Origin: a virus
Reading direction: 5' to 3' (one strand)
Length of the DNA: 64,000 bases
IMG/VR virus record: IMGVR_UViG_3300025929_000014
Span: 41,787 to 105,786 of that record
Shown here: one piece after another, positions 11,221 through 61,693 of the stretch
Numbering within the stretch: position 1 is the stretch's first letter
How the letters are laid out: every line of letters begins with the position of its first letter
The notes under the pieces: model-generated
Seen by the model: the letters and a program-made list of their open reading frames with translations, nothing else
Told to the model about the DNA's origin: nothing
The model's database searches: none
Translations under genes and position numbers: made by a program

Positions 11221-11504
11221 ACAAGTTTTTACAGTTCGTGGGTGTGATTGCGCTCATGTTTGGCGCCTATATCTTGATGGGCTTCGCCGTACAGCAGCTC
11301 TGGGGTTGGTTCGTCGTCCCGTTCTTTCATCTTAGCGCAATCGGCATCGCCGAAGCCCTGGGGTTGACACTGCTCGGCTCTGCCGCCTCGAACTTCAACC
11401 CGATCAAGAGCGGTGATTTCTCGGCAAGGTTCTTGGTTCTTCTGATGATTTTCCGCCCGGCAGGCATCCTGGCCACCGGCTTTCTCCTGCACCTGTTCCT
11501 GTAA
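11217..11504 (+). CDS. Small membrane protein (95 aa)
   Basis: Three hydrophobic segments are visible: residues 5-30 (FVGVIALMFGAYILMGFAV), about 38-60, and 75-95 near the C-terminus. The protein should span the inner membrane. It overlaps the HAD gene by 4 bases (ATGA) and its TAA overlaps the polymerase ATG by one base. The role is unknown. Its tight coupling to the polymerase suggests it is expressed with replication genes. Confidence 0.7.
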   Translation: MNKFLQFVGVIALMFGAYILMGFAVQQLWGWFVVPFFHLSAIGIAEALGLTLLGSAASNFNPIKSGDFSARFLVLLMIFRPAGILATGFLLHLFL

Positions 11505-14200
11505 TGAGTACCTGCGCTGACTGCCCCTACAAAGGTGACTCCTGCGGCTTTCGCGGACCCATCGACGCCCCCGTCGTGATCGTGGGCGAGGCGCCCAGCT
11601 TCAACGACCTGGCTGCCGGGAAACCGTTCTCCGGTGATGCCGGTCAGCTGCTCAAGGGCGTCATCGCGGCCGCAGGTTATGGCGACCTGCCCATTCTGTA
11701 CACCAATGCCATGGTCTGCAAGCCGGACTTTTCCGATGAGCCGTTCGCCAAAGGCATTGCGGCCTGTCGGATGCGCCTCTTGGCGGAAGTGAACATGTAT
11801 CCCCGCAGGATGGTGATCGCTCTGGGCACCAGCGCACTGCGCGGCCTTATTGGAGGTGCTGGCGAGGATACCAAGCTCAGGGGCCAGTTCCTGAAGCTCT
11901 TCAACGGCACGCCCCTGATGGTCACCTATCGTCCAGGCGCCGTGTTGCGTGCCGTCGGCTATTACCGCCACTTTGCGCGCGATATACGCCGGGCGCTGGC
12001 GGTTGGCGCCGGTGAGCCCCGTCCAGATCCGGGCGAGACGCAGCATGTCGTGCTCGATGCGGCCGGCACACGCGCCCTGGTGCCGAACCTGCTCGCTCTG
12101 CCGCATGGACAGCTGGTGGCATTTGACGTGGAGACTACCGGTCTCAATCCGCGCCTGAACAAAGTAACGTTTCTGGGTATCTCCTACGAGCCGCACCATA
12201 CCTTCATCATCCCGGCCGCGCATATCCCCTTGCTGGCGCCCGCCATGCTGGGCGCGAATGCGCGCTGGGTCGGCCACAACGTCCAGTTCGACGTGAAGTT
12301 CTTGCAGGCGGCCGGCCTCGACGTGCCGCTCCATCACGATACACAGATTATGTCGTATTGCCTGGATGAAGTCCCTGGCGGGCATGGGCTCAAGGCGTTG
12401 GCCAACGAGCACCTGGGCACCAACGACTACGAGGCGGCGCTGGATGTCTATAAGAAGAAGCACGGCATCGTCGGCGACTACAGCCAGATCCCCAACGAGA
12501 TCCTACTGCCCTATCTGGCGATGGATGCCGACTACACGCTGCGCCTGGCGAACCTGCTCCTGCCCCAGGTGGAGGCCCAGCCGGACCTGAAGCACCTCTA
12601 CTATAACACGCTGCTGCCGGCGACCCGCGCGCTCCTCAAAGTGGAGGCTGCCGGGCTCTGGATGGATCCTGAGCGGACTGAACTTGCTCGCGCGTCCATT
12701 ACGGTGGAGCGGGATAACCGGCTGGCCGAGCTGGAGGATCTGGCCTACGGCATCTGGGATACGGAAGCCTATCGTCGGGATACGGGGTCCAGGGCGGGCG
12801 TTAAGGGGCCGTCCGCCGCGCAGGTCGCGCACATCAGTTCGACGGATAAGAAGAAGATCGACTGGATGCTGAAACGTCTGGAGCTGGGCTATGTGCTCCC
12901 CAGCCTGCAGGAGAAGGCGCTGCGCGATGCCATAGCCGCCCTACCGACAGATCGTGTGGCAGGCCACTTCCTGCAGGTGTTGCAGGGCCTGCGCATGGCC
13001 GATAAGGAGCTAAAAGCGCTCAGGAAGGAAGAGCATACGGATAAGGAGGCGATAGACGCCGCCAATGACCTCAAGACGCGTGCCAAGGCGATCTTCGACT
13101 CCTGGGAGCATGCCTACTGGAAGCCGGCCGAGTATCAAGCCGAACGCGAGACCCGCACGGCCGTAGACTTCACGCCGGGCAGCCCGGCACAGGTCTTGTG
13201 GCTGCTCAAGAAGATGGGTATTCCGGTCTCCAATACGCAGGAAGACACCATCAAAGGGTATGCGGCGACAGTGCCCTTTATCGAATCGCTACTGGGCTAT
13301 CGTGGCGCCGTCAAGTCGCTGGGCACCTACGTGGATGCCATTTCGGAGATCGTAGCCAAAGAGCCGGACGGTCGGGTGCATGCCACCTTCCGCTTGACGA
13401 CCGTCGTCACCGGGCGGCTCTCATCGGCCGAGCCCAACCTGCAGAATATCCCACGAGATCCGATGTTGCGGGGTATGTTCGGGGCGCCACCAGGACGCAT
13501 CCTGGTGGAGGCCGATCTCTCGCAGGCCGAGCTGCGGGTGCTGGCCCATCTCTCTGGTGATGCCTTCTTGCGCCAGGTCTATGCCGAAGGGCGCGATCTG
13601 CACAGCGAAATGGCGGCCAGCGTCTTCGGGCCAAACTTCACGCCGGAGCAGCGCACCAAGACCAAGATCCTGAACTTCGGCGTGATCTACGGCATGAGCG
13701 CGCATTCACTCTCCGCTCAGTTCGAGATGCCCCTCAAAGAGGCGGAAGGCATCATCACCCGCTGGTATGAGCGGGTGCCGCAAGCCAAAGCCTACCTGGA
13801 AGCCTGCCGGCAGGCGCCGCTCAAGGGGCATGTGCTGACCACGCCGTTTGGCCGGCGCCGTCGGTACGGGCTGATTACCAACGAGAACATGGATGCCGTC
13901 CAGCGCGAGGCCACGAACTACGCCATCCAATCGACGGCCAGCGACATTGCGCTCCATGCTGCTATCGTGGTGCAGCCCCAGCTGCCGGCGCTGGACGCCT
14001 TCATCGTCAATATCGTCCACGACTCCATTCTGGTGGAGTGCCCCAATGACGCCCAAACGCCCAACCTGGTCGCTCGCCTTCTGGTGGAGACCATGCGGCG
14101 TATCCCCGCCGAGCGTATCGGCTTTACGGTCCCCATGGATGCCGACGCCAAGATTGGCCGCCATTGGGGGCAGATGCAGAAATGGAAGGAGCAAGGGTGA
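11504..14200 (+). CDS. Uracil-DNA glycosylase domain fused to family A DNA polymerase
   Basis: An 898-residue fusion. Residues 1-150 are a family 4/5-type UDG: CADC (4-7), VGEAPSFNDLAAGKPFSGDAG near 27-47, VCKP near 73 and a further Cys about 15 residues on, matching the four iron-sulfur ligands. Residues 200-365 are a 3'-5' exonuclease: ExoI VAFDVETTG (D208, E210), ExoII GHNVQFD, ExoIII YLAMDADYT. The polymerase domain (about 550-898) has motif A EADLSQAELR (D671), motif B KTKILNFGVIYG (Phe kept near 725) and motif C VHDS (D840). All catalytic residues are present. The UDG part could excise uracil or keep the polymerase off uracil-containing DNA. It is the replicative polymerase candidate. 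A GTGA overlap couples it to the RNA ligase. Confidence 0.92.
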   Translation: MSTCADCPYKGDSCGFRGPIDAPVVIVGEAPSFNDLAAGKPFSGDAGQLLKGVIAAAGYGDLPILYTNAMVCKPDFSDEPFAKGIAACRMRLLAEVNMYPRRMVIALGTSALRGLIGGAGEDTKLRGQFLKLFNGTPLMVTYRPGAVLRAVGYYRHFARDIRRALAVGAGEPRPDPGETQHVVLDAAGTRALVPNLLALPHGQLVAFDVETTGLNPRLNKVTFLGISYEPHHTFIIPAAHIPLLAPAMLGANARWVGHNVQFDVKFLQAAGLDVPLHHDTQIMSYCLDEVPGGHGLKALANEHLGTNDYEAALDVYKKKHGIVGDYSQIPNEILLPYLAMDADYTLRLANLLLPQVEAQPDLKHLYYNTLLPATRALLKVEAAGLWMDPERTELARASITVERDNRLAELEDLAYGIWDTEAYRRDTGSRAGVKGPSAAQVAHISSTDKKKIDWMLKRLELGYVLPSLQEKALRDAIAALPTDRVAGHFLQVLQGLRMADKELKALRKEEHTDKEAIDAANDLKTRAKAIFDSWEHAYWKPAEYQAERETRTAVDFTPGSPAQVLWLLKKMGIPVSNTQEDTIKGYAATVPFIESLLGYRGAVKSLGTYVDAISEIVAKEPDGRVHATFRLTTVVTGRLSSAEPNLQNIPRDPMLRGMFGAPPGRILVEADLSQAELRVLAHLSGDAFLRQVYAEGRDLHSEMAASVFGPNFTPEQRTKTKILNFGVIYGMSAHSLSAQFEMPLKEAEGIITRWYERVPQAKAYLEACRQAPLKGHVLTTPFGRRRRYGLITNENMDAVQREATNYAIQSTASDIALHAAIVVQPQLPALDAFIVNIVHDSILVECPNDAQTPNLVARLLVETMRRIPAERIGFTVPMDADAKIGRHWGQMQKWKEQG

Positions 14201-15261
14201 GCAGTTTTGAGGTCAAGGTCTACCCCATAGAGCTGCACCCGCACGAGAACGCGGATGCGCTTGAAATCGGCCGTATACCAGGCCAGGATTATCAGTTTGT
14301 TGTGCGCAAGGGCCAGTTCGTGGACGGCGATCTCTTTGTCTATATCCCCGAACAGGCGGTGCTTCCGCAGGATCTCATCGAGGGTATGGGTTTAACCGGA
14401 ATGTTGCACGGCAGCAACAAAAACCGGGTGAAGCCGATTCGCCTGCGCGGCGTATTGAGCCAGGGTCTGGCGCATAGGCCGGTTGTCTGGCCTCCCGACT
14501 GGGAGCTGGGCATGGACGTTGGCGACGAGCTGGGCATCACCAAGTATGAGCCGGTTGTCCCCACGCATCTGGAGGGGAGGGTCAAGCCGGCACCTAACCT
14601 ACCGCGTGCGCCGGGCGGATCGCTCTTCCAGGGCTACACCGACATCGACAACATCAAGAAGTTTCGCGATGTCCTGCAGCCTGGTGAGCTGGTCTATGTG
14701 ACGGAGAAGCTCCATGGCACCTGCCTTCTGGTCGGCAGCCTGTGTGGCGAGCGGGTGGTTTCCAGCCTGGGGTTGGCCCGGCGTGGCTACATGCTGGAAG
14801 ACGACGGCAACGTCTACTGGGAGACGGCCAAACGCTACGAGCTGCACGACAAGCTGGAGATGATGCTGAAGAGCAAGGGCTGCCAGCAGGGCATGATCTT
14901 TGGCGAGATCATCGGCGTGCAGGATCTCAAGTATGGGCACACGGACGGTCAGACGAGCTTTCAGGCGTTTGACTTACTCCTGGAGGAGTCATATGGCTAC
15001 CAGCCGTATTATGAGTTCCTGCCGCGTTGTCTGAGCTATGGTATCCCCACCGTGCCCCTGCTCTTTATCGGTCCTTATGCGCCGGACCACATCCTCTCGC
15101 TGACGGCCGGCAGCAGTTCGCTCGCTGATGTGCGTCATGTCCGGGAGGGCGTGGTCATTCGTCCAGCAGCCGAGCGCCGCCATCCCGCCTTGGGGCGGGT
15201 GATTCTGAAGAGCATCAATCCCGACTATCTCACGCGCAAGAATGGCAGCGAGTTTCACTGA
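14197..15261 (+). CDS. RNA ligase (DraRnl/Rnl5-like)
   Basis: The 354-residue product has an N-terminal OB-like domain (about 1-130) and then a nucleotidyltransferase domain: motif I TEKLHGTCLLV (lysine near residue 171), motif III-like FQAFDLLLEE, motif IV EGVVIRP and motif V GRVILKSIN. The KLHG form of the motif and the domain order resemble Deinococcus RNA ligase (Rnl5). Such enzymes use ATP to seal 3'-OH/5'-phosphate breaks in RNA duplexes. In phages RNA ligases often repair tRNAs cut by host anticodon nucleases. The GTG start at 14197 overlaps the polymerase stop. Confidence 0.87.
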   Translation: MSSFEVKVYPIELHPHENADALEIGRIPGQDYQFVVRKGQFVDGDLFVYIPEQAVLPQDLIEGMGLTGMLHGSNKNRVKPIRLRGVLSQGLAHRPVVWPPDWELGMDVGDELGITKYEPVVPTHLEGRVKPAPNLPRAPGGSLFQGYTDIDNIKKFRDVLQPGELVYVTEKLHGTCLLVGSLCGERVVSSLGLARRGYMLEDDGNVYWETAKRYELHDKLEMMLKSKGCQQGMIFGEIIGVQDLKYGHTDGQTSFQAFDLLLEESYGYQPYYEFLPRCLSYGIPTVPLLFIGPYAPDHILSLTAGSSSLADVRHVREGVVIRPAAERRHPALGRVILKSINPDYLTRKNGSEFH

Positions 15262-18080: not shown

Positions 18081-18196
18081 AGAAGAAACCGACAAACGGC
18101 GAAATGCTGCAGATTACCGTTGTATACGGCATCGGTATCGGCATAGCTACCGGTATGCCTTTGTGGTTCTCAACGCCAATAGCGGCCAGCAAATGA
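18077..18196 (+). CDS. Tiny single-span membrane protein (39 aa)
   Basis: A short reading frame with ATGA overlaps at both ends (18077 and 18193), which strongly suggests it is translated. The N-terminus is basic (MKKKPTNGEM) and is followed by one hydrophobic segment (ITVVYGIGIGIATGMPLWF). It may be a small inner-membrane peptide. Function unknown. Confidence 0.6.
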   Translation: MKKKPTNGEMLQITVVYGIGIGIATGMPLWFSTPIAASK

Positions 18197-18777
18197 ATGA
18201 CGTGCTCTTCTCATCGGCCAGCGCCGAGTGGCTCACCCCCGCGCATATCATCAAATCCATTGTGAGCTTCTTTGGCGGCATCGCGCTAGATCCCTGCGCC
18301 GAGTCGCACACCGATCCGAATGTGCCGGCCGCCAAACGCTTCACCAAAGAGGACGACGGCTTGAAACAGGAGTGGGTCGGCAACTCGATCTACATGAATC
18401 CACCGTATGGGCGTGGTATCGGGGTCTGGATTACCAAGCTGCTGGCCGAGCGCCGGCACTATAGCGAGGCCATCACCCTGATTCCGGCGCGCGTCGATAC
18501 CGGCTGGTGGGATACGCTGATGCAGGTCGAGCCCATCTTCTGCCTGTTGACCGGCCGGTTGACGTTCCATTCGACGCATCCTGGCCTGCCGCCCTCACTC
18601 GAAGGCTTGACGCTCGAAGAGGCTGCGGAGCTACAGGAGAAATACCGGAAGGCGCTCAAGGGCCACCTCGATCCCGATACCGCGCCGTTTCCCAGCGCGC
18701 TGGTCTACATCGGCGAGCGCCGCCATCTCTTCGCCCATCATTTCGCCGAGTTCGGGCGCATCTACGCCCAGTATTAG
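18193..18777 (+). CDS. Dam-type DNA N6-adenine methyltransferase (phage T1 type)
   Basis: The 194-residue product matches the phage DNA N-6-adenine methyltransferase family: an SAEWLTP start region, DPCAESHT near residues 33-40, the catalytic NPPYGRG near 69-75 and PARVDTGWW. It transfers a methyl group from S-adenosylmethionine to adenine in DNA, probably protecting phage DNA from restriction or marking it. The start is fixed by the ATGA overlap with the tiny membrane-protein gene. It is the penultimate gene of the early arm and lies just before an anti-defence gene. Confidence 0.88.
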   Translation: MNDVLFSSASAEWLTPAHIIKSIVSFFGGIALDPCAESHTDPNVPAAKRFTKEDDGLKQEWVGNSIYMNPPYGRGIGVWITKLLAERRHYSEAITLIPARVDTGWWDTLMQVEPIFCLLTGRLTFHSTHPGLPPSLEGLTLEEAAELQEKYRKALKGHLDPDTAPFPSALVYIGERRHLFAHHFAEFGRIYAQY

Positions 18778-18788
18778 AAGGAGACCAC

Positions 18789-19010
18789 ATGGAGACCAAG
18801 AGCAAGATAGCGGAGATTCAGCACAACTTCACCTACCATCCCCCGAAGGAAGGACAGCAGGATACGTACAGCTTTCTACGCAAACGTGGGCTTGATTTCT
18901 CGCTGGATATTTTCGCCCTGACGCCCAGCTCGCGTGAGCAATCGCTGGCGCTGACCAAGCTCGAAGAGGCGGTGATGTGGGCGAACGCCGCCATCGCTCG
19001 GCACGGCTAA
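18789..19010 (+). CDS. acb2: Acb2/Tad1 hairpin-type cyclic-nucleotide sponge (anti-CBASS)
   Basis: The 73-residue product carries the Acb2/Tad1 hairpin-domain pattern: NFTYHPPKEGQQDTY in the first half and SREQSLALTKLEEAVMWANA followed by AIAR at the end. Acb2 proteins bind cyclic di- and trinucleotide signals and so block CBASS immunity; Tad1 relatives bind gcADPR and block Thoeris. The two helices of the hairpin are predicted at about 20-40 and 45-70. The start at 18789 follows GAAGGAGA. It is the last gene before the arm-closing terminator and stands beside a DNA methyltransferase, making a small anti-defence pair. The ligand cannot be told from sequence. Confidence 0.85.
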   Translation: METKSKIAEIQHNFTYHPPKEGQQDTYSFLRKRGLDFSLDIFALTPSSREQSLALTKLEEAVMWANAAIARHG

Positions 19011-19030: not shown

Positions 19031-19065
19031 AGCAAAACCCCCGTCGCGTTGACGGGGGTTTTGCT
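19031..19065. terminator. Bidirectional terminator between early and late arms
   Basis: A perfect 15-base inverted repeat AGCAAAACCCCCGTC (19031-19045) and GACGGGGGTTTTGCT (19051-19065) with a 5-base loop. It gives a GC stem with a T run on either strand. It sits between convergent genes ending at 19010 (+) and 19091 (-). Confidence 0.93.
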
Positions 19066-19090: not shown

Positions 19091-20197
19091 TTACTTCAGC
19101 CACCCTTGCGCGCGTGCGTAGCGCAGACTGCCGGACAGGCTCAGGAGGCCGTGCCCGTAATGGAGCGGGTCCATGAAATGGCTCCAGCCGGCGCCCTTGA
19201 GCAATGCCTCTTTGGCCTGGTCCGGTGTGAGGCCCGCGCTGAGCAGGTCGGCGACGGCGCCCGCCACGAGCGGGGTTGCCATGCTGGTGCCCTCCCAGGT
19301 ACACAGGCCGGCGCAGTTGATCAGTGTGGGGCGCATCGGCGCGATGCCGAAAATATAGTCGCCAGGCGAGGCGATGGCCACGTCCGGCCCGTAGGTACTC
19401 CAGCTGGTGATATGGTTCCACCTATCGGTGGCGGAGACGCGAATTACGCCCGGATAGCTGCCCGGATACATCTGCGCGTTCTGGCCGTTGTTGCCGGCTG
19501 CGGCGACCACGATCACGCCAACTTTTTCCGCGTAGGCGACGGCTGCGGCCGTTGCCGGATCGCTGCTTGATCCGCCCAGCGACATGCTGATGACGGAGAA
19601 GCGATGAATGGCACCCCACATAATGGCGGCCGCCACGTCCCGATCATCGGCGCCTTCGCCGTCAAACACCTTGGCGATAGCTGCCTTTGCCTTCGGCGCC
19701 ACGCCGTAGTAGTCCGCATACTGGCCGTTGCAGACGATCTCGCACAATACGAACGACCCATGCCCAACCTTATCCACATAGGGACTGGCGTTAGGGATGG
19801 TGATGTCTTTGCTGCATGACACGTAGGGGTTATAGGTCTTACACTGTACCGGCACGCTGCCATGCAGGGGGTTCACCGCCAGGCTGGGGAGTACCTGCCC
19901 GGAGAGCACAGTAGTGGCTTCCGTGCGGTCCAGGCCGGTGTCAATGACGAGGACCGAGACACCGTGTCCATCTGCTTCAGCGCTCCAGGCATCCTGCGCA
20001 CCGATGGTGTAGAGATGCCAGTAGAGCTGCGGGAACGGCGACATGACACCGCCAGGTATAGGCGCGGTGAACGGCAGCGCCTGCCCCCAGGTCGTAGTCG
20101 TATACGCACGGCTCGATGCCATGCTGGCTGGGCTGCTGGGAGCGACCACCAGGCCGCAGAAGAGGAGTGTGCAGAGGATGGACAGGACGCGGCGCAT
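19091..20197 (-). CDS. Secreted S8 subtilisin-like serine protease
   Basis: The 368-residue product starts with a signal peptide (MRRVLSILCTLLFCGLVVAP) and has the complete subtilase triad: Asp86 in VLVIDTG, His146 in VGHGS and Ser305 in GTSMATP, with the oxyanion Asn in AAGNNG near 236. It is a secreted endopeptidase. The start at 20197 is chosen for the signal peptide and the 1-base overlap with the upstream stop; a longer frame to 20293 lacks one. It is the last gene of the late arm, next to a papain-like peptidase and glycosidases, so host envelope or surface-layer degradation at lysis is likely. Confidence 0.92.
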   Translation of the reverse strand: MRRVLSILCTLLFCGLVVAPSSPASMASSRAYTTTTWGQALPFTAPIPGGVMSPFPQLYWHLYTIGAQDAWSAEADGHGVSVLVIDTGLDRTEATTVLSGQVLPSLAVNPLHGSVPVQCKTYNPYVSCSKDITIPNASPYVDKVGHGSFVLCEIVCNGQYADYYGVAPKAKAAIAKVFDGEGADDRDVAAAIMWGAIHRFSVISMSLGGSSSDPATAAAVAYAEKVGVIVVAAAGNNGQNAQMYPGSYPGVIRVSATDRWNHITSWSTYGPDVAIASPGDYIFGIAPMRPTLINCAGLCTWEGTSMATPLVAGAVADLLSAGLTPDQAKEALLKGAGWSHFMDPLHYGHGLLSLSGSLRYARAQGWLK

Positions 20198-21024
20198 TAG
20201 TTTGCTCCAAGACTGATGACCCAGGGGTCGAAGGCGAGCTGTGGATTGGCGATGTATGTTTCCGGTAGGTAGACGTAGCCATTGTCTCCCCATGGACCCC
20301 AGGAGCCACGAACAATGAAGGCGGCAATCCCGGTCCCGCGCGCGTTGGGGGTCCAGCCTACACCGCAGAGCGCGTGCCCGCCCTCAAGCTGATCGGTGGT
20401 GGGGTCTGGCTCCGGCACTATGCCGTTGATCGCCGCCCGGTAATAGCTGGAATACAGCAAGATACCGAAGAGGGGGGTGAAGCCCTGGGCAAGGGCCTGC
20501 TTGTAGCCCTCGACGGTGCCGTCCAGCGCGTAGTAGTTCGCGATCTCGTGGTTCTTGGCGTGGTCTATGGCCGACTGTGGTGGGGTCTGGGCGTACTGCC
20601 CAGCCACGTAGGGGTAGTTGTGCCAGGCTGCCGCGCCGAACTGATGGAGCGCTGATACCGCATCGCGGATTGTGGATCCAGCATCGCTGGCGTCTGTGCC
20701 TTCCAGAGAGCGGGAGAACCAGTATTGGAGCTGGAACGATATGTCGAAGTCTTCCAGTGCCCCGTAGTGGAGACTGGGAGCCCACACCGCAGGGATGGGA
20801 AGGTTGTGCCGCTTGCGCCTGCTGCGGCGGTAGGCCGCGCCGGAGGCGAAGGAGGTACAGCTGCCCTCCTGCTCCTGGTTGTAGGCGTCCGGGAACTCAT
20901 TGCGGTAATCAATCGGGCCGGCTACCGGCTGTGCGGTGAAGTGTTCCTTGAACTGGTAGTCGCGGGGATCGGGCAGCGATTTGCGGAGCCCCAGGTAGTG
21001 TCCTTTACTGGTGACAAGTCCCAT
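20197..21024 (-). CDS. Papain-like C1A cysteine peptidase
   Basis: The 275-residue product has the C1A landmarks: Cys56 in QEQEGSCTSFA, His217 in GGHALCGVGW, and the motif normally reading NSWGxxWGxxGY, here RGSWGPWGDNGY with Gly240 where the catalytic Asn is usual. There is no signal peptide and no long propeptide. It probably cleaves proteins; activity may be lowered by the Asn loss. The gene abuts the glycosidase gene upstream and overlaps the subtilase start by one base, so the group is co-translated. Confidence 0.85.
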   Translation of the reverse strand: MGLVTSKGHYLGLRKSLPDPRDYQFKEHFTAQPVAGPIDYRNEFPDAYNQEQEGSCTSFASGAAYRRSRRKRHNLPIPAVWAPSLHYGALEDFDISFQLQYWFSRSLEGTDASDAGSTIRDAVSALHQFGAAAWHNYPYVAGQYAQTPPQSAIDHAKNHEIANYYALDGTVEGYKQALAQGFTPLFGILLYSSYYRAAINGIVPEPDPTTDQLEGGHALCGVGWTPNARGTGIAAFIVRGSWGPWGDNGYVYLPETYIANPQLAFDPWVISLGAN

Positions 21025-21912
21025 TTAGATGACTTCCTTGTAGGCGAAGAATGACGGTTTACCTTCCAGAGCAGTGGGCGCCTCAAGCCCCCAGGTGCGC
21101 AGCCGCCCCTGGCTTACGAAATCAAATAAACTGAACCAATGCGCGACCACCACCTGTGGGTACGCCGCTAGCTCGTGGTACATGGTGGCCAGGTTGGCGG
21201 CCTGCAGCGCTGTGCCGACAACGCCACTCTCCCAGCCCATCTCGGTGATGTAGATCGGCCTATCGGTAATGCTGGCGTAGTAGCCCATGTAATCGTGGAG
21301 CGTCTGTATGTTCACCGGCTTCGCCGGGTCCAGATAGAAGTGGATGCCCACTCCATCGAGGGTAAGGGGATGCTGCATGATCTCCTCGATCCAGGTCACC
21401 TGCCGGATGTATTCGGCTGCCGAGTTGGCGTAGGTGTCCCCGCCGTAGCGGTCTGGATCCCAGGCGAAGACGCCCCCAGTAATCAGCTGGGCGTGCGGCA
21501 CCGATGCCCTGCCGGCGACGTGTACGGCGTAGTAGAGTTTCGCGTAGCTCTGCGCCGAGAGCCGAAACTTGGAGCCGAGCGATGCGGGCTCGTTTAAGAA
21601 CTCGAAAACCTGCACACCCTGCATGCTGGCGGCCAGCAGCTCAAACTGCTGCACGTAATCCTCGACATACTGGCCGAACACCACGCTGTTGGTCGGCGCC
21701 TGCCATTGTGCGGGACCAGCGCCGGGCACGATGGTGAGCGGCACCATGGCGGTGACGTTCTTTCCCCGACTCGTGAGCAGGTTGACGACGCCGGCATCAT
21801 CGACGCTCTGTAGCTCCAGCCGGATATCTTTGGTGCCCAGGGCGTTCAGTGTGCCGAGCATGGACTCGGTAATGGAGCCCGGCAGATAGAGGACGACGCC
21901 TTTGCGTCTCAT
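21025..21912 (-). CDS. Glycoside hydrolase, clan GH-A type TIM barrel
   Basis: The 295-residue product shows the GH-A pair of acids at strand ends 4 and 7: FEFLNEP (Glu108, acid/base) and IYITEMGW (Glu224, nucleophile), and other barrel strands such as VGIHFYLD. It should hydrolyse a beta-linked polysaccharide. There is no signal peptide, so release would need lysis, a holin or virion attachment. It overlaps the DUF1906 gene by 4 bases. The exact GH family cannot be settled by eye. Confidence 0.8.
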   Translation of the reverse strand: MRRKGVVLYLPGSITESMLGTLNALGTKDIRLELQSVDDAGVVNLLTSRGKNVTAMVPLTIVPGAGPAQWQAPTNSVVFGQYVEDYVQQFELLAASMQGVQVFEFLNEPASLGSKFRLSAQSYAKLYYAVHVAGRASVPHAQLITGGVFAWDPDRYGGDTYANSAAEYIRQVTWIEEIMQHPLTLDGVGIHFYLDPAKPVNIQTLHDYMGYYASITDRPIYITEMGWESGVVGTALQAANLATMYHELAAYPQVVVAHWFSLFDFVSQGRLRTWGLEAPTALEGKPSFFAYKEVI

Positions 21913-22844
21913 GCGTCGCTCTGGGCGTAGGTGGCAATAGGCAGCCAGCCATGCACGACGGACTCGCCTTGCAAGAGATGCACTTCGCCCCAGCGATCAT
22001 CCGTCTTTTTGATGCGGCCGGTGGGCACGACCTGGGCGCCCAGCTCCAGATAGACCTTGTTATGGTGCGGGTCTATGGCGGCGTCACTGGTGTGCGCTGG
22101 GACCGCCTTGAGCATGGCCGGTGTGACCATGCGGTAGATCTTGGGGACCACCACTGGCGGCGTCGTGCCGTAGGCCATATCCATCAGTTGCTGCGTGCCG
22201 GTGTTGAAGTCCACGATGTTGCCGACGTTCTCACAGTATTGCCAGGCCACCACGAACTTGGCCCAGGCGCCCAAGAGCGAGACATCCGGCGTGAAGGTGT
22301 CTATGACCTTGCCGAACAGCGCATTCGGCTCTGATTCGCTGCTCCAGATGTAGATGGGAAAGGCCGTTGCCAGCGCTGCGGCGATATAGGCGTCGATATG
22401 CTCTTGCTTCTCGCTATTGAGATAGAGCCCTGCGTTATACTGCGCGCGGTGCATATTGGCGGCGAAACCACGAATCTCGTCGGCAGTGGGATCCATATTG
22501 GTCTCGAAGTCGATGAACCCGCAGACCCCTTTGGGGACGCCGAGCGCCACCAGGCTGTCGATAAAGACCTGCGCGTGATCCCAACCGTCCTGGAAACTGC
22601 CGGCGACATTGGCGGCCGATGTGCGGTTATAGATCGGGATATCGGCTGCGCCGCGCTGATGGTCAAAGGCTACCTCGCCCGGCGTCAGGCCATCCGAAAG
22701 TCCGGCGATGGCTTCGGTGTAGCGGGCGATGAATGCCGGAGCGGCAAAGTTTCCCCGCACGTAGTCATCGACCAGTGTCGTGGTGCCGGGCACGAACGCG
22801 TTGCTTGCAGCCGCACTATCGTAGCCCCAGTAAATAGTTGTCAT
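21909..22844 (-). CDS. DUF1906 glycoside-hydrolase-like (Rv2525c-like) protein, endolysin candidate
   Basis: The 311-residue product begins with IYWGYDSAAASN, typical of DUF1906 (Rv2525c-like) TIM-barrel domains. Later barrel strands are GVCGFIDFETN and FPIYIWSS, with an acidic pair in FIDFE near 130. Residues about 240-311 form a separate beta-rich, SH3-like C-terminal domain (KVYLELGAQVVPTGRIKKTD, HLLQGESVVHGWLP) suited to cell-wall binding. Catalytic domain plus wall-binding domain in the lysis region makes it the main endolysin candidate. ATG at 22844 follows an AAGGAGGAG site; a longer frame to 22958 has none. Confidence 0.78.
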   Translation of the reverse strand: MTTIYWGYDSAAASNAFVPGTTTLVDDYVRGNFAAPAFIARYTEAIAGLSDGLTPGEVAFDHQRGAADIPIYNRTSAANVAGSFQDGWDHAQVFIDSLVALGVPKGVCGFIDFETNMDPTADEIRGFAANMHRAQYNAGLYLNSEKQEHIDAYIAAALATAFPIYIWSSESEPNALFGKVIDTFTPDVSLLGAWAKFVVAWQYCENVGNIVDFNTGTQQLMDMAYGTTPPVVVPKIYRMVTPAMLKAVPAHTSDAAIDPHHNKVYLELGAQVVPTGRIKKTDDRWGEVHLLQGESVVHGWLPIATYAQSDA

Positions 22845-23004
22845 ACTCCTCCTTGAAATGCTCTGTGCGGCAGCGTTCGGCGCGAGCGAGGCGCCACTGG
22901 TAATAGGAATCGCCTCTACAGTAGGCGTGCCACCAATCCGTATATTTTTCGCGCCCACGATGCAGAAATCGTTGTCGTCGGCGCCAGTCGCGTGTGCGGG
23001 TCAT
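22816..23004 (-). CDS. Hypothetical small basic protein (62 aa)
   Basis: The ATG at 23004 follows AGAGGA. The product is Arg- and Tyr/Trp-rich (RDWRRRQRFLHRGREKY) and ends 29 bases inside the DUF1906 gene, whose ribosome binding site lies within it. It may be a small nucleic-acid or membrane-interacting protein. The gene fills an otherwise empty stretch and is only moderately supported. Confidence 0.45.
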   Translation of the reverse strand: MTRTRDWRRRQRFLHRGREKYTDWWHAYCRGDSYYQWRLARAERCRTEHFKEEYDNYLLGLR

Positions 23005-53235: not shown

Positions 53236-53310
53236 GGATGGATAGCTCAGGGGTGAGAGCGCCGGATTCTAAACCGAAGGGCGCAGGTTCGAGTCCTGCT
53301 CCATTCGCCA
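53236..53310 (+). tRNA. tRNA-like gene 2 (anticodon position reads CTA, amber type)
   Basis: A 75-base cloverleaf: acceptor GGATGGA/TCCATTC (one G-U), D arm GCTC/GAGC with AGGGGTGA loop, T arm GCAGG-TTCGAGT-CCTGC (perfect), discriminator G and encoded CCA. The anticodon arm CCGGA-TTCTAAA-CCGAA does not pair as it should; shifting by one base gives three pairs and an 8-base loop ATTCTAAA. With T33 and A37 kept, the anticodon is CTA, reading UAG. It looks as if one base at position 39 were missing. Confidence 0.65.
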
Positions 53311-56767: not shown

Positions 56768-59700
56768 CTATGCACTACGACGCAGATGCGCGTTGTGCTC
56801 GGCGATTTGGTCGGCGTGCGCGGCCATGCGGCGCCAGGAGACGTTCTGATCGCCCCGTTGCTGGTGCTCGTTGGCCCAGAACCGCAAGGAGCGCTCCGTT
56901 TTCTTGAGCATCTCGCTGCCTGACTCATTGCCGGTATAGCGCTGAGGATTGCGGTCGTGCATCAGCATCTCCGCATAGCGGTGACCCTCCAGATCCTGGC
57001 GCGGGACGCCGGCATGGTGGAGGAGCGCCTTCAGGCCCTCGTGCAGAATCTGCTTTTTCTGCGCTTCGGGATCGGCGATGTTCTTGCCGGCCACGTAATG
57101 GCGCCCGACCTCCTTGCCGGCGTTCCAGGCCGACTGATCTCCGAGATCGCCGGCCGCGTGCCCGGTCGGAGCGGCCGTCATGCGGTAGGAATCGCCTCCC
57201 TCATAATTGAGGTGGTGGACACCGCCCTGCCCGAACTGCGAGACTTCCCGATGCAGATCGCCCAGGGCCTGTTCGTAGCCGGGAGCGTCTTTTGGATTGA
57301 CGCCGGCTGGGCGGGGAACGGTGCGCCCATGGAAGCGCACCGGCGCATCACTGCCAGGCTGGCGGTACTGCAAGCTGGGAGTTGCGGTGCCTTCCTCGCT
57401 GCGCACGGAATCGCCGGGAGAAAAGGCTTCGGGAGTAGTGGCGAACTGGCCGCCCTGCACGACCTTGCGGTGCGCTGCCAGGCGGTCCCGGTCGCTAACG
57501 GGAGACGCTGCCGGTGTGGGCTTTGCAGGGGCAGATGCCGGTGCCGGTGCCGGTTTGGCGCTGGCGCCCGCTACGGGCGTGCCGGCGTTGTCGATGGTGC
57601 CATCCCAGGCCGGAGGCGTTGCGGCGGGAGCAGCTGTCGCGGCGGCGGGTTTCGCCACGCGCGGGAAGGTGGCGGGCTTGACGGATTTAGGTGGTGTTGC
57701 GGGAGCCGCAGTAGCTGGGCCTGGCGCTGGGGCTGAAGCCGCTGGTGCAGCCGATGCTGGGGGCGGAGCCGAAGCAGCTGGTTTTGCTGCTGCCGTACCA
57801 CTCTCTTCCTCCTTTGCATAGCGGTCCCTATGCCGCCCCGCCTCAATGGCGTCCATCCCTATCGCATTCCAAGCGGCCATATTGTGTCTTTGGCCAGACG
57901 CAATAAGTGTTTTCGCCTTTTGGTAACGCGCTTCTGGAGAATTATCTGGCGCAGCTGCTTCGGGCGCCTGTGTCTGCGGTTCTGGGGCATTGGCGCCGGC
58001 AGTATGCCGGTCTACCGCAGCCGCCCAATCGTGGGCTGGGCCGTGATTGGGATTGACCTCGCCGCGCGCTTGGGCTATCGCACCGTAGTGCTCTGCCAGA
58101 GGCTTGGCGTGTGCGAGGGCGGCAGTGTGCTGAGCAGGAGAGAGACCAGTGGCCCAGGATCCCGCGCCGGCCGCCTGATGCCCAGCCGTGTGCTCGGCGA
58201 CCTGGGCAGCAGTGAGTGTTCCCGCTTGCGGCTTTGCCGCAGACGGTGTTGGGGCGGGTTCCGGCTTAGCTGTAGAAGCTGTCTCCGGCTTGGCGGCGTT
58301 ATCGGGGTGGGCCGCTATCAGCCTATTCATAAGACTGACATTCTGCTTGGCTTGATCGACCGTCGTCTCGTGGCGTCCGAGCTTCTCATCCCAGTCTTTG
58401 CCGCCCTGTATATGGTCGTAGCCGCCCCTGGCACGAGGAGACTTGGCCTCGTCTTCGTTGTCCTGATGATCTTCCAGCGCGCGTTGCGCATTTTGCAGAT
58501 CAGTCGTGGCGGCGGCATGGCGGTTCTGCAGGGATGCCATCGGTTCGGGATGCGCCTGATGGTGCGCCATCAAGGCGTCCTCCAGCTGCCGGCGCTGGGA
58601 GCTAAGATTGGCGCGCTGCGCGCTGGGTCCAGGTTGAATCCCCTGGAAACCCCTGGCAGTCGCTGTGAGCTTGTTATAGAGGCTGGTACGGTGCGCTTCG
58701 GTGTTGTTGGCTGCCGCCATTTCTGCCTGGTCGCGACCGCTCGTCCTGTAGCCTCCGGCACGCGTACTCGGCTTTTCGCCAGCGCCCTGCGCCATATGCA
58801 ACTTGTCGTTCTCCGTCTGCAGCCGGGCATGCTCGGCGGAAAGCTGATCGTGCTGTACTTGCAGGGAGTGGACCTGGGTGCGGGCGCCGGCATGCTGCGC
58901 GGCCTGCAGCTGCGCGCCGACGTTATTCATGCGCTCGACATGGCTTGCCAGCGCCGCGTCATGGGCGGCTACGTCCTGCGCCTTGACTGGCGCAGCTGCC
59001 GGTTTGGCGGGCGCTGGGGCAACCGGTTTAACGGGAGCGGGAGCTGCCGTCTTCGGTGCGGGTGCGGGTGCGGGTGCGGGCTCCGGCTTGGATTCCGGTG
59101 CGGGAGCTGCTGCTACCGGCTGCGGATTGCTCAGCTCCGGCAGATGCTTCTCGAACAGCTCTTGATCTTTACCGGCTTCAGCCTGGGCGCCAGGTAACGC
59201 GCGCTGGGCCATGTCATCGTGATGCTGTGCATGTTGCTGCAGCTCGTTGAAGGCTTCGGCATGCTCGTGGTAAGCGGCATGATCGCCCTCAGCCGGCTGA
59301 TGCTGCTCGTTGAGCGCGTGTGCCGCCTCCTCATACATGCGTCCGGCCCGCACATGACCGTTATAGAGATGGGTGTTCGGCATCTGCTCGCGAATAGCCT
59401 GCGAGAGCGGGTTATTGACCGCATCGAGGTGCGGATGCGAGTGTTGCAGCGCAGCGCCCAGATCCTCGTGCAGCTGATCGTGCCCATGCTGCATGGGGGT
59501 TTTGGCGTTGATATGCTGATAGGCTTGCTGCGCGAACTGGCGCGGGCTGAAGGCAGGCTCGGCAGCCGGCGCAGCCGCAGGAGGCGGTGCCTCTGGCGCT
59601 GCAGGCTTGGGTGCTTCCGGCGCTGCGGGCGACGGCGCACTAGGAGCCGGTGGCGCTACCGGTTTTGGTGCCGGAGGCGGTGCTGCTTGTGCCGGAAGCG

Positions 59701-61693
59701 GTGGCGGAGCAGATACCTGCGGAGCCGGCGCGGGTGCGGGTTTGGGCGCTAGAGCAGGGGGAGCGACTGGAGCCGGCATTGGGGGAGCGCTCGACGCAGG
59801 AGCAGGTGCGGCTGCCGGTTTCGGTGCAGGCGCCGGAGCGGGACCGGCCTGCGGCGAGGCACCGGCAGGTTTGGCGCCATTTTGCGGCTTGACCTGCCAG
59901 GGGGGTGGAGCTGTGTAGGGCTTCTGCTGTGGAACGGATTGGTGCGCGACAGCCGGCGTCGCCTCGTCGCCATGATAGGCGGCGCTCAGCGTATCGCTGG
60001 CCTGATCGGCTTTCTTCTCCATGCCGCGCGCGAGGGCGCGATGCAGGTTGGCGGTCGGCCCGTTGCCGGCTGCCCGATGCGCCTCTTCCAGATGCGTATG
60101 CGCGAGATAGTGGCCGAGATCACCGCCCTGTTGCTGGGCGAACTGCTTCCACTGGTCGTAGCTGCCGGCATGCTGCGAGCCGGCGACTCCCCGGAAGTTC
60201 TCCGGTGGATAGTATTTGCCGATATACTCGCCCAGGGCCGCTCCGGCTTTGCCTTTCGCTTCGGCGCTGGCTTGCTGGGAGGCGGACTGCTGTGGCGCAC
60301 CGCCTCCAGAAGCGGGAGCGCCTCCAGGTGCGGATGGCCCTGCAGATGGTCCTGCAGACGGCTGCGCGGAGCGGGGCTGTGACGGCGCTCCAGACGCTGC
60401 TGTGGGCGCTGCTGGGCCAGCCTGATGCTGTTGTGGAGGGGCGCCTGCTGGAGCTGGAGCTGGAGCAGGCGGTGCTGGCGGAGCAGCCTGCGGTGACATA
60501 GCGGGAGCGGGAGCGGGCGCAGCTTTCGGTGCCGGAGCGGGAGCGGCTTGCGGTGGCGACGCCGGTGCAGGTGCAGGGGCAGGGGCAGGGGCAGGTTTGG
60601 GCGCAGCTGCGGCCTGTGGAGCGGGTGCCATGGGCGCGGGGGCTGGTGCTTCAGACGCTGCTTCGGCTGGAGGCGTTGCAGGTGCCATGGGAGCTTCCAT
60701 AGGGGCTGCGGGTGCCATTGGAGGGCTTCCAGCCTGTGGCGCCTGTTGTGGCGCTGCTGACGGCATCTGCGGGGCGACACCCTGATCGAAATTGGTCTGC
60801 ATGCCGGGTACATGGCCGCTACTGCCGGTCTGGGTGCCGCCTGGTGCTGGTGCCATGGGGGCGGGAGCGCCTGATGCTTGTGGTGCTTGCGGGGCTGCGG
60901 CCGCTTGTGCTGCCGGCGCCGCCATGTGCGGCATGCCGCCGTAGAACGCCCCCTGGAAGCTGGCCGGCATCGGCTGCCCGGTCTTCGAGGAGTATGAGTC
61001 GCGGAGCGAGCTTTCGAGGTTGCGGGCCACCTGTCCCCTGGCCATGCGGGGCGGCTTGCCCTCCATGGCGGGTGCGGCTTGCGCTGGGGCAGCTTCTTCC
61101 GCCTGTGGCGCTTCTGCTTCAGCTGGTGCTGCTTGCGCTGCCGGTGCGCCGATGCCTGCCGGGCGTGGACCACCACGCCTGGGAGCGCCAGCGCTTGGCG
61201 TAGCCGGCGTGGGAACCGGCGTACGCATGGCGGCCGCCCTGGTCGGCGTGGCATGCTGGGCGGGATCGAACTCCCGGTAATTGGGATGCGCGTTATGCCC
61301 TTCCGGCGTGGTGCCCGATGGGTGGTGCGTGATGGTCACCTTGTGCTGGATATCGTGTGGCACCGGTGGCAGGTGCTTGATATTCGCGCCGATCAGGTGC
61401 GCCGGGCCTTTGGTGACCACGCCGCCCGCACCGACAAAGATATGGGTGACCATCTCGCCGTCGTCGTCTGGCGTGGCGTGATGAATGGTGATCCAGTGTC
61501 CGCCACCACCAGCTGCCTTCCCCAGATCGATGCCCAGCGCCATACAGGCGTCGGGATCGGGGAACAGGCTCTTGATGATGTCGAGCTGGCGATTATAGAT
61601 GGCCGCATGCTGCGCCGCTCGAAACAACGCAAGCGCCTGCACATCGGCAGGGTCATCGCGGACGATGACGTGCTGGGGAACGGGTTGACGCAC
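56768..61693 (-). CDS. Giant Pro/Ala-rich virion-associated protein (1641 aa)
   Basis: The N-terminal 135 residues form a small domain (GGHWITIHHATPDDDGEMVT, IFVGAGGVVTKGPAHLIGAN). Residues about 150-490 and 590-760 are extremely rich in Pro, Ala, Gln and Gly (APAPAPASPPQAAPAPAPK) and certainly disordered. Helical islands occur between (AHLEEAHRAAGNG-type; HLYNGHVRAGRMYEEAAHAL; coiled QSLQVQHDQLSAEH-type near 930). The last 200 residues are helical and basic. It is likely a head-associated or ejected protein. GTG at 61693 has an AAGGAG site. No enzyme motif was recognised. Confidence 0.75.
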   Translation of the reverse strand: MRQPVPQHVIVRDDPADVQALALFRAAQHAAIYNRQLDIIKSLFPDPDACMALGIDLGKAAGGGGHWITIHHATPDDDGEMVTHIFVGAGGVVTKGPAHLIGANIKHLPPVPHDIQHKVTITHHPSGTTPEGHNAHPNYREFDPAQHATPTRAAAMRTPVPTPATPSAGAPRRGGPRPAGIGAPAAQAAPAEAEAPQAEEAAPAQAAPAMEGKPPRMARGQVARNLESSLRDSYSSKTGQPMPASFQGAFYGGMPHMAAPAAQAAAAPQAPQASGAPAPMAPAPGGTQTGSSGHVPGMQTNFDQGVAPQMPSAAPQQAPQAGSPPMAPAAPMEAPMAPATPPAEAASEAPAPAPMAPAPQAAAAPKPAPAPAPAPAPASPPQAAPAPAPKAAPAPAPAMSPQAAPPAPPAPAPAPAGAPPQQHQAGPAAPTAASGAPSQPRSAQPSAGPSAGPSAPGGAPASGGGAPQQSASQQASAEAKGKAGAALGEYIGKYYPPENFRGVAGSQHAGSYDQWKQFAQQQGGDLGHYLAHTHLEEAHRAAGNGPTANLHRALARGMEKKADQASDTLSAAYHGDEATPAVAHQSVPQQKPYTAPPPWQVKPQNGAKPAGASPQAGPAPAPAPKPAAAPAPASSAPPMPAPVAPPALAPKPAPAPAPQVSAPPPLPAQAAPPPAPKPVAPPAPSAPSPAAPEAPKPAAPEAPPPAAAPAAEPAFSPRQFAQQAYQHINAKTPMQHGHDQLHEDLGAALQHSHPHLDAVNNPLSQAIREQMPNTHLYNGHVRAGRMYEEAAHALNEQHQPAEGDHAAYHEHAEAFNELQQHAQHHDDMAQRALPGAQAEAGKDQELFEKHLPELSNPQPVAAAPAPESKPEPAPAPAPAPKTAAPAPVKPVAPAPAKPAAAPVKAQDVAAHDAALASHVERMNNVGAQLQAAQHAGARTQVHSLQVQHDQLSAEHARLQTENDKLHMAQGAGEKPSTRAGGYRTSGRDQAEMAAANNTEAHRTSLYNKLTATARGFQGIQPGPSAQRANLSSQRRQLEDALMAHHQAHPEPMASLQNRHAAATTDLQNAQRALEDHQDNEDEAKSPRARGGYDHIQGGKDWDEKLGRHETTVDQAKQNVSLMNRLIAAHPDNAAKPETASTAKPEPAPTPSAAKPQAGTLTAAQVAEHTAGHQAAGAGSWATGLSPAQHTAALAHAKPLAEHYGAIAQARGEVNPNHGPAHDWAAAVDRHTAGANAPEPQTQAPEAAAPDNSPEARYQKAKTLIASGQRHNMAAWNAIGMDAIEAGRHRDRYAKEEESGTAAAKPAASAPPPASAAPAASAPAPGPATAAPATPPKSVKPATFPRVAKPAAATAAPAATPPAWDGTIDNAGTPVAGASAKPAPAPASAPAKPTPAASPVSDRDRLAAHRKVVQGGQFATTPEAFSPGDSVRSEEGTATPSLQYRQPGSDAPVRFHGRTVPRPAGVNPKDAPGYEQALGDLHREVSQFGQGGVHHLNYEGGDSYRMTAAPTGHAAGDLGDQSAWNAGKEVGRHYVAGKNIADPEAQKKQILHEGLKALLHHAGVPRQDLEGHRYAEMLMHDRNPQRYTGNESGSEMLKKTERSLRFWANEHQQRGDQNVSWRRMAAHADQIAEHNAHLRRSA

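Follow-up and report, generated by a model that had tools for sequence, protein, structure and literature searches.

What does the last gene before a strong DNA hairpin encode in this phage genome, a sponge for the cyclic nucleotides of host immunity, a relative of such sponges with a different ligand, or a protein of some other function? The question is raised at positions 18789-19010 (+) of the window, the whole 64,000-nucleotide stretch of DNA that was analysed, taken from an IMG/VR virus record of 105.8 kb. Here a 73-residue open reading frame runs from ATG to TAA (METKSKIAEIQHNFTYHPPKEGQQDTYSFLRKRGLDFSLDIFALTPSSREQSLALTKLEEAVMWANAAIARHG). The product carries both the YHPPK and SREQSLALTKLEEAVMWANA segments, and these, the exact coordinates and a match to Pfam PF24729 confirm the Acb2 hairpin pattern reported in a preliminary description, which had named the gene an Acb2/Tad1-type anti-CBASS sponge in a small anti-defence cluster at the end of the early arm.

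The reading frame opens 11 bases after the stop codon of a co-oriented neighbour (18193-18777, +) encoding a Dam-type DNA N6-adenine methyltransferase of 194 residues (PF05869, E 1.7e-17; phrog_111, DNA methyltransferase), which had been correctly described as adjoining. The junction, 18775-18788 (+), comprises the stop codon of the Dam-like gene and the sequence AAGGAG, a strong ribosome-binding site a few bases 5′ of the ATG. This arrangement suggests that the two genes are co-transcribed and that translation of the second starts at 18789. A longer frame from GTG 18507 (167 residues) was rejected, as it traverses the Dam gene out of frame and it is the ATG that has the ribosome-binding site.

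Between convergent gene sets, at about 19031-19065, lies a near-perfect DNA hairpin of 15 bp with a GC-rich stem and A and T runs on either side (MFE -38.4 kcal/mol, z -6.06). It is likely a bidirectional terminator, in agreement with the terminator previously placed just after the gene; a simple terminator scan missed it because its T-run sits inside the stem. The 73-residue gene is the last of a rightward run that includes a uracil-DNA glycosylase-DNA polymerase A fusion, an RNA ligase and ThyX, and the genes beyond the DNA hairpin, among them a subtilase and a papain-like protease, read leftward. The assignment to the end of the early arm fits this order, with rightward replication genes before and leftward genes after.

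The fusion is an 898-residue reading frame (11504-14200, +) that combines a uracil-DNA glycosylase domain and a family A DNA polymerase including a 3′-5′ exonuclease. Directly past the DNA hairpin, at 19091-22958 (-), are the leftward genes of the subtilase (S8) and the papain-like protease (C1), together with two whose products weakly match glycoside hydrolases; protease genes of this kind are unusual for a phage. The RNA ligase gene (14164-15261) is about 3.5 kb upstream of the 73-residue gene and in Gordonia phage Gray (L083) an RNA ligase gene is adjacent to the relative, a proximity that is probably coincidence.

Profile, fold and conserved oligomer-interface residues support membership of the Acb2/Tad1 hairpin domain family. 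The profile search advised in the preliminary description matched PF24729 (Acb2/Tad1 hairpin) with 63.9 bits against a gathering cut-off of 27 (E 1.6e-17) over the full profile, positions 1-58. T4 Vs.4, the positive control, scores 71.4 bits (E 7.1e-20), and profile position 1 corresponds to residue 7 of Vs.4 and residue 15 of the window protein, position 58 to residues 83 and 71. PADLOC and NCBIfam gave no match for the hairpin protein. The best PHROG is phrog_1454 (E 1.6e-24); PHROG 717, which holds Vs.4 (E 2.3e-32), is matched at E 0.045 only. By PHROG assignment the protein is outside the founder group. Could a chance helical reading frame, with no relation to Acb2 or Tad1, have been taken for a relative? 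Single-sequence similarity to the solved Acb2/Tad1 chains is indeed weak (E 0.045), but the score stands 37 bits over the cut-off of a curated profile, relatives number in the hundreds and PF24729 finds Vs.4 in register; these family statistics refute the idea, to which we attach next to no probability.

An AF2 model predicted from an alignment of 55 members (pLDDT 95) has helices at residues 2-13, 23-44 and 49-72. The predicted chain displays the layout of the Acb2 protomer, with a short N-terminal helix and a long two-helix hairpin (PMC12043709, PMC10419184). A Foldseek comparison with solved structures places three Vs.4-cGAMP chains at the top (prob 0.98-0.99, TM 0.63-0.66), with E-values >0.1. 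VIA realignment also ranks Vs.4-cGAMP (7uq2) highest, with rmsd 3.8 over 63 aligned residues and Z 6.7, a value in the range of unrelated helical bundles. Acb2 8h2x gives Z 6.2 (rmsd 4.7, 64 aligned) and Tad1 7uav, for which the hairpin alone (residues 29-73) is matched, Z 5.0 (rmsd 3.0, 45 aligned). The E-values and Z are modest, which is usual for a small helical protein. The fold match is insufficient by itself and the profile result bears the weight.

The closest known proteins share some features with the window protein and differ from it in others. With T4 Vs.4 it has in common the register of PF24729, a short helix followed by two long antiparallel helices, the hexamer-interface alanines and the pair Y16/R31. 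However Vs.4 has 88 residues, and the turn between the long helices is tighter in the 73-residue protein. The Pseudomonas phage Acb2 proteins of PaMx33/PaP2 type (8h2j/8h2x) share the protomer layout and a tyrosine and basic residue 15 positions apart, whereas the sequence signal is almost nil (hhalign probability 0.1). 'Acb2 homolog 43' (9ptq, 76 residues) is similar in length and, of the solved proteins, gives the family profile its strongest sequence match (E 9.1e-6), but the match is confined to the hairpin and there is FAT in place of the WAN motif; a literature search for PDB 9ptq found no paper. The C-terminal hairpin motif of Tad1 (7uav, 8kbb-8kbh), SRE...T...EEA.MW, is closely similar. 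Tad1 in addition has an N-terminal antiparallel β-sheet domain (PMC12043709), and since the window protein is all-helical, with no strands, it was ruled out as a Tad1 orthologue.

The contacts to cGAMP in T4 Vs.4 involve Y8, H11, K23, R79 and F82, whilst L29, A66, A73 and A77 are hexamer residues and mutation of A66/A73/A77 abolishes the hexamer (Jenson and colleagues, PMC10097602). Loss of the ligand-binding residues in a structural model had been named beforehand as a point against a sponge, and the result is mixed. In the profile register two of the five contacts are kept, Y8 as Y16 and K23 as R31 (Lys to Arg), and three are lost, the positions of H11, R79 and F82 being taken by P19, A67 and A70. 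The dinucleotide pocket is reduced to its stacking tyrosine and a single basic residue. Taken alone, the N-terminal stretch aligns with Vs.4 no better than chance (1448 of 5000 shuffles were as good), so the equivalence of Y16 and Y8 rests on profile register and fold. The hexamer residues are kept or conservatively replaced (L29 as F37, A66 as A54, A73 as A61, A77 as A65), the three alanines all being retained.

Ten positions are invariant across the 55 members (P19, Q23, R31, R49, E50, T56, W64, A65, N66 and I69). Y16 is tyrosine in 54 of 55 relatives, and positions 26 and 35 are basic in most relatives though not in the window copy. The SRE...T...EEA.MW stretch is nearer to the Tad1 hairpin than to Vs.4; the invariant R49, E50, T56 and W64 are common to the Tad1 hairpin and only partly to Vs.4. 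The position of R49 is that of R67 in Pseudomonas Acb2, an arginine taking part in cyclic trinucleotide binding, and is occupied by an aspartate (D61) in T4 Vs.4. The designation Acb2/Tad1-type therefore stands for the hairpin domain but goes too far beyond it, given a PHROG other than that of Vs.4, two of five cGAMP contacts and no Tad1 β-sheet.

The family is widespread. Relatives were found in 190 IMG/VR stretches, the best 80 of these 190 being 49-64% identical, in 323 phage records, among which phages of Mycobacterium, Paenibacillus and Gordonia predominate, and on bacterial contigs from many phyla. The hosts of phages with a member of the PHROG 1454 branch include Mycobacterium, Gordonia, Paenibacillus and Streptomyces, and many metagenomic phages carry one too, a breadth that contrasts with the description of Acb2 as relatively rare and limited to specific phage groups (PMC11722364). 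One mycobacteriophage record labels a relative 'cyclic nucleotide inhibitor', and a published description of mycobacteriophage BigBubba gives the product of gene 102 as a CBASS antagonist that putatively sequesters cyclic nucleotides (PMC11953737). The BigBubba product, gp102, is homologous over 86% of the query with 42% identity; it and other actinobacteriophage 'CBASS antagonist' genes belong, however, to a different host, and the function there is also putative. Annotators of phage genomes already label the family putative Acb2 or CBASS antagonist, and the window gene is an ordinary member, adding one more to the list. The interest is at the level of the subfamily, since the PHROG 1454 pocket differs from those of the solved Acb2 structures.

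Some relatives carry additional sequence. An IMG/VR relative (L056, 4629-5195) is a 188-residue reading frame with a HAD/polynucleotide-kinase-phosphatase-like domain (PF18143 weak, phrog_415) and the hairpin (PF24729, E 9e-24); such a sponge-phosphatase-like fusion would be unusual, and an internal start may apply instead. Three others (L008, 4890-5195; L009, 4261-4644; L067, 872-1288) have N-terminal extensions of 30-80 residues before the hairpin, with no clear family match and uncertain starts.

Is the neighbouring methyltransferase part of a defence module? Among 34 virus records carrying a hairpin relative, many of them fragments, a Dam-type gene passes the Pfam cut-off in only one; the hairpin occurs in none of the 31 records, again many of them fragments, that carry a relative of the window Dam; and a comparison of 63 loci showed no shared neighbour cluster, with every neighbour family confined to 5 loci or fewer. 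On these counts a conserved Dam/sponge module was rejected. The pairing is particular to the window genome and, as Dam is not a conserved partner, the proposed small anti-defence cluster rests on that one genome; conserved linkage is not supported. The Dam protein may guard against restriction.

The further suggestion that the host group uses CBASS or Thoeris does not follow from the gene. Just 6 of 40 bacterial genomes with a hairpin relative have an SMODS-type CD-NTase, by a Pfam SMODS count that is rough, misses other CD-NTase families and has no matched control. Such a gene would fit with selection by nucleotide-signalling defence at some point in the host range, and no particular system is indicated.

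We consider it probable, by analogy with T4 Vs.4, that the gene encodes a protein of the Acb2/Tad1 hairpin family that acts as a cyclic oligonucleotide sponge. The gene would be expressed early, and the 73-residue chains, each a short N-terminal helix and a long two-helix hairpin, would assemble into a compact hexamer as in T4 Vs.4. Pockets between the protomers of this hexamer would take up the cyclic oligonucleotides that serve the host as immune signals. The signals would be sequestered, not cleaved, effectors would stay inactive and an anti-CBASS effect would result. Family, predicted single-chain fold and conservation of the interface alanines are directly supported. The varied places at which relatives sit in many phages suit an accessory anti-defence gene, whereas the scarcity of CD-NTases in carrier genomes (6/40) speaks against a sponge.

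With the dinucleotide pocket incomplete, 3′3′-cGAMP is not assured as the ligand. A sponge of the same fold might instead take a ligand outside the cyclic dinucleotides (3′3′-cGAMP among them), for example a cyclic trinucleotide held at a trimer interface through the SRE...T...W motif common to Tad1. This would be a sub-case of the sponge function, not exclusive of it, and is a serious possibility, if somewhat short of an even chance. Retention of only two of the five Vs.4 dinucleotide contacts argues for it, as do invariant residues at R49, E50, T56 and W64 that match the Tad1 hairpin and only in part Vs.4, and Acb2 and Tad1 do bind trinucleotides at a site apart from the dinucleotide pocket (PMC12043709). 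On the other hand Y16 and R31, at two dinucleotide-contact positions, are almost invariant. More tentatively, PHROG 1454 as a whole could be a broad branch of the hairpin fold with a rebuilt pocket, having no equivalent of F82, R79 or H11 and an invariant SRE...T...WAN, that sequesters an immune nucleotide other than 3′3′-cGAMP, possibly one that so far has no matched sponge.

The incomplete pocket and the low CD-NTase frequency in carriers would also be compatible with a hairpin-family protein that has lost nucleotide binding or never had it, and serves the phage in another role, for example as a small oligomer with a structural or regulatory function. The gene has structural neighbours in some phages; in Gordonia phage Gray it comes right after the portal gene. 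We regard such a role as unlikely. Ten residues, the charged or polar R31, R49, E50, T56 and N66 among them, are invariant in 55 diverse relatives and suggest a conserved ligand site, and there is no conserved neighbour gene pointing to a structural function. A cyclic oligonucleotide sponge is the reading we prefer.

With respect to the phage itself, a near-identity DNA search in phages gave no match, a search with the major capsid protein found no relatives in IMG/VR and one with the tail sheath no match in phages. Terminase relatives in phages reach about 32% identity at most, those of Halorubrum, Tunturiibacter and Thermus phages coming first, which does not fix the host. The part of the record to the left of the window contains apparent genes for a large terminase and a tyrosine integrase, which makes a temperate lifestyle probable. 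Within the window, ARAGORN calls a tRNA-like gene with a two-base anticodon at 53236-53310 (+), probably degenerate or a false call, and at 56768-61693 (-) there is a reading frame of 1641 residues in which Ala-Pro repeats are very abundant.
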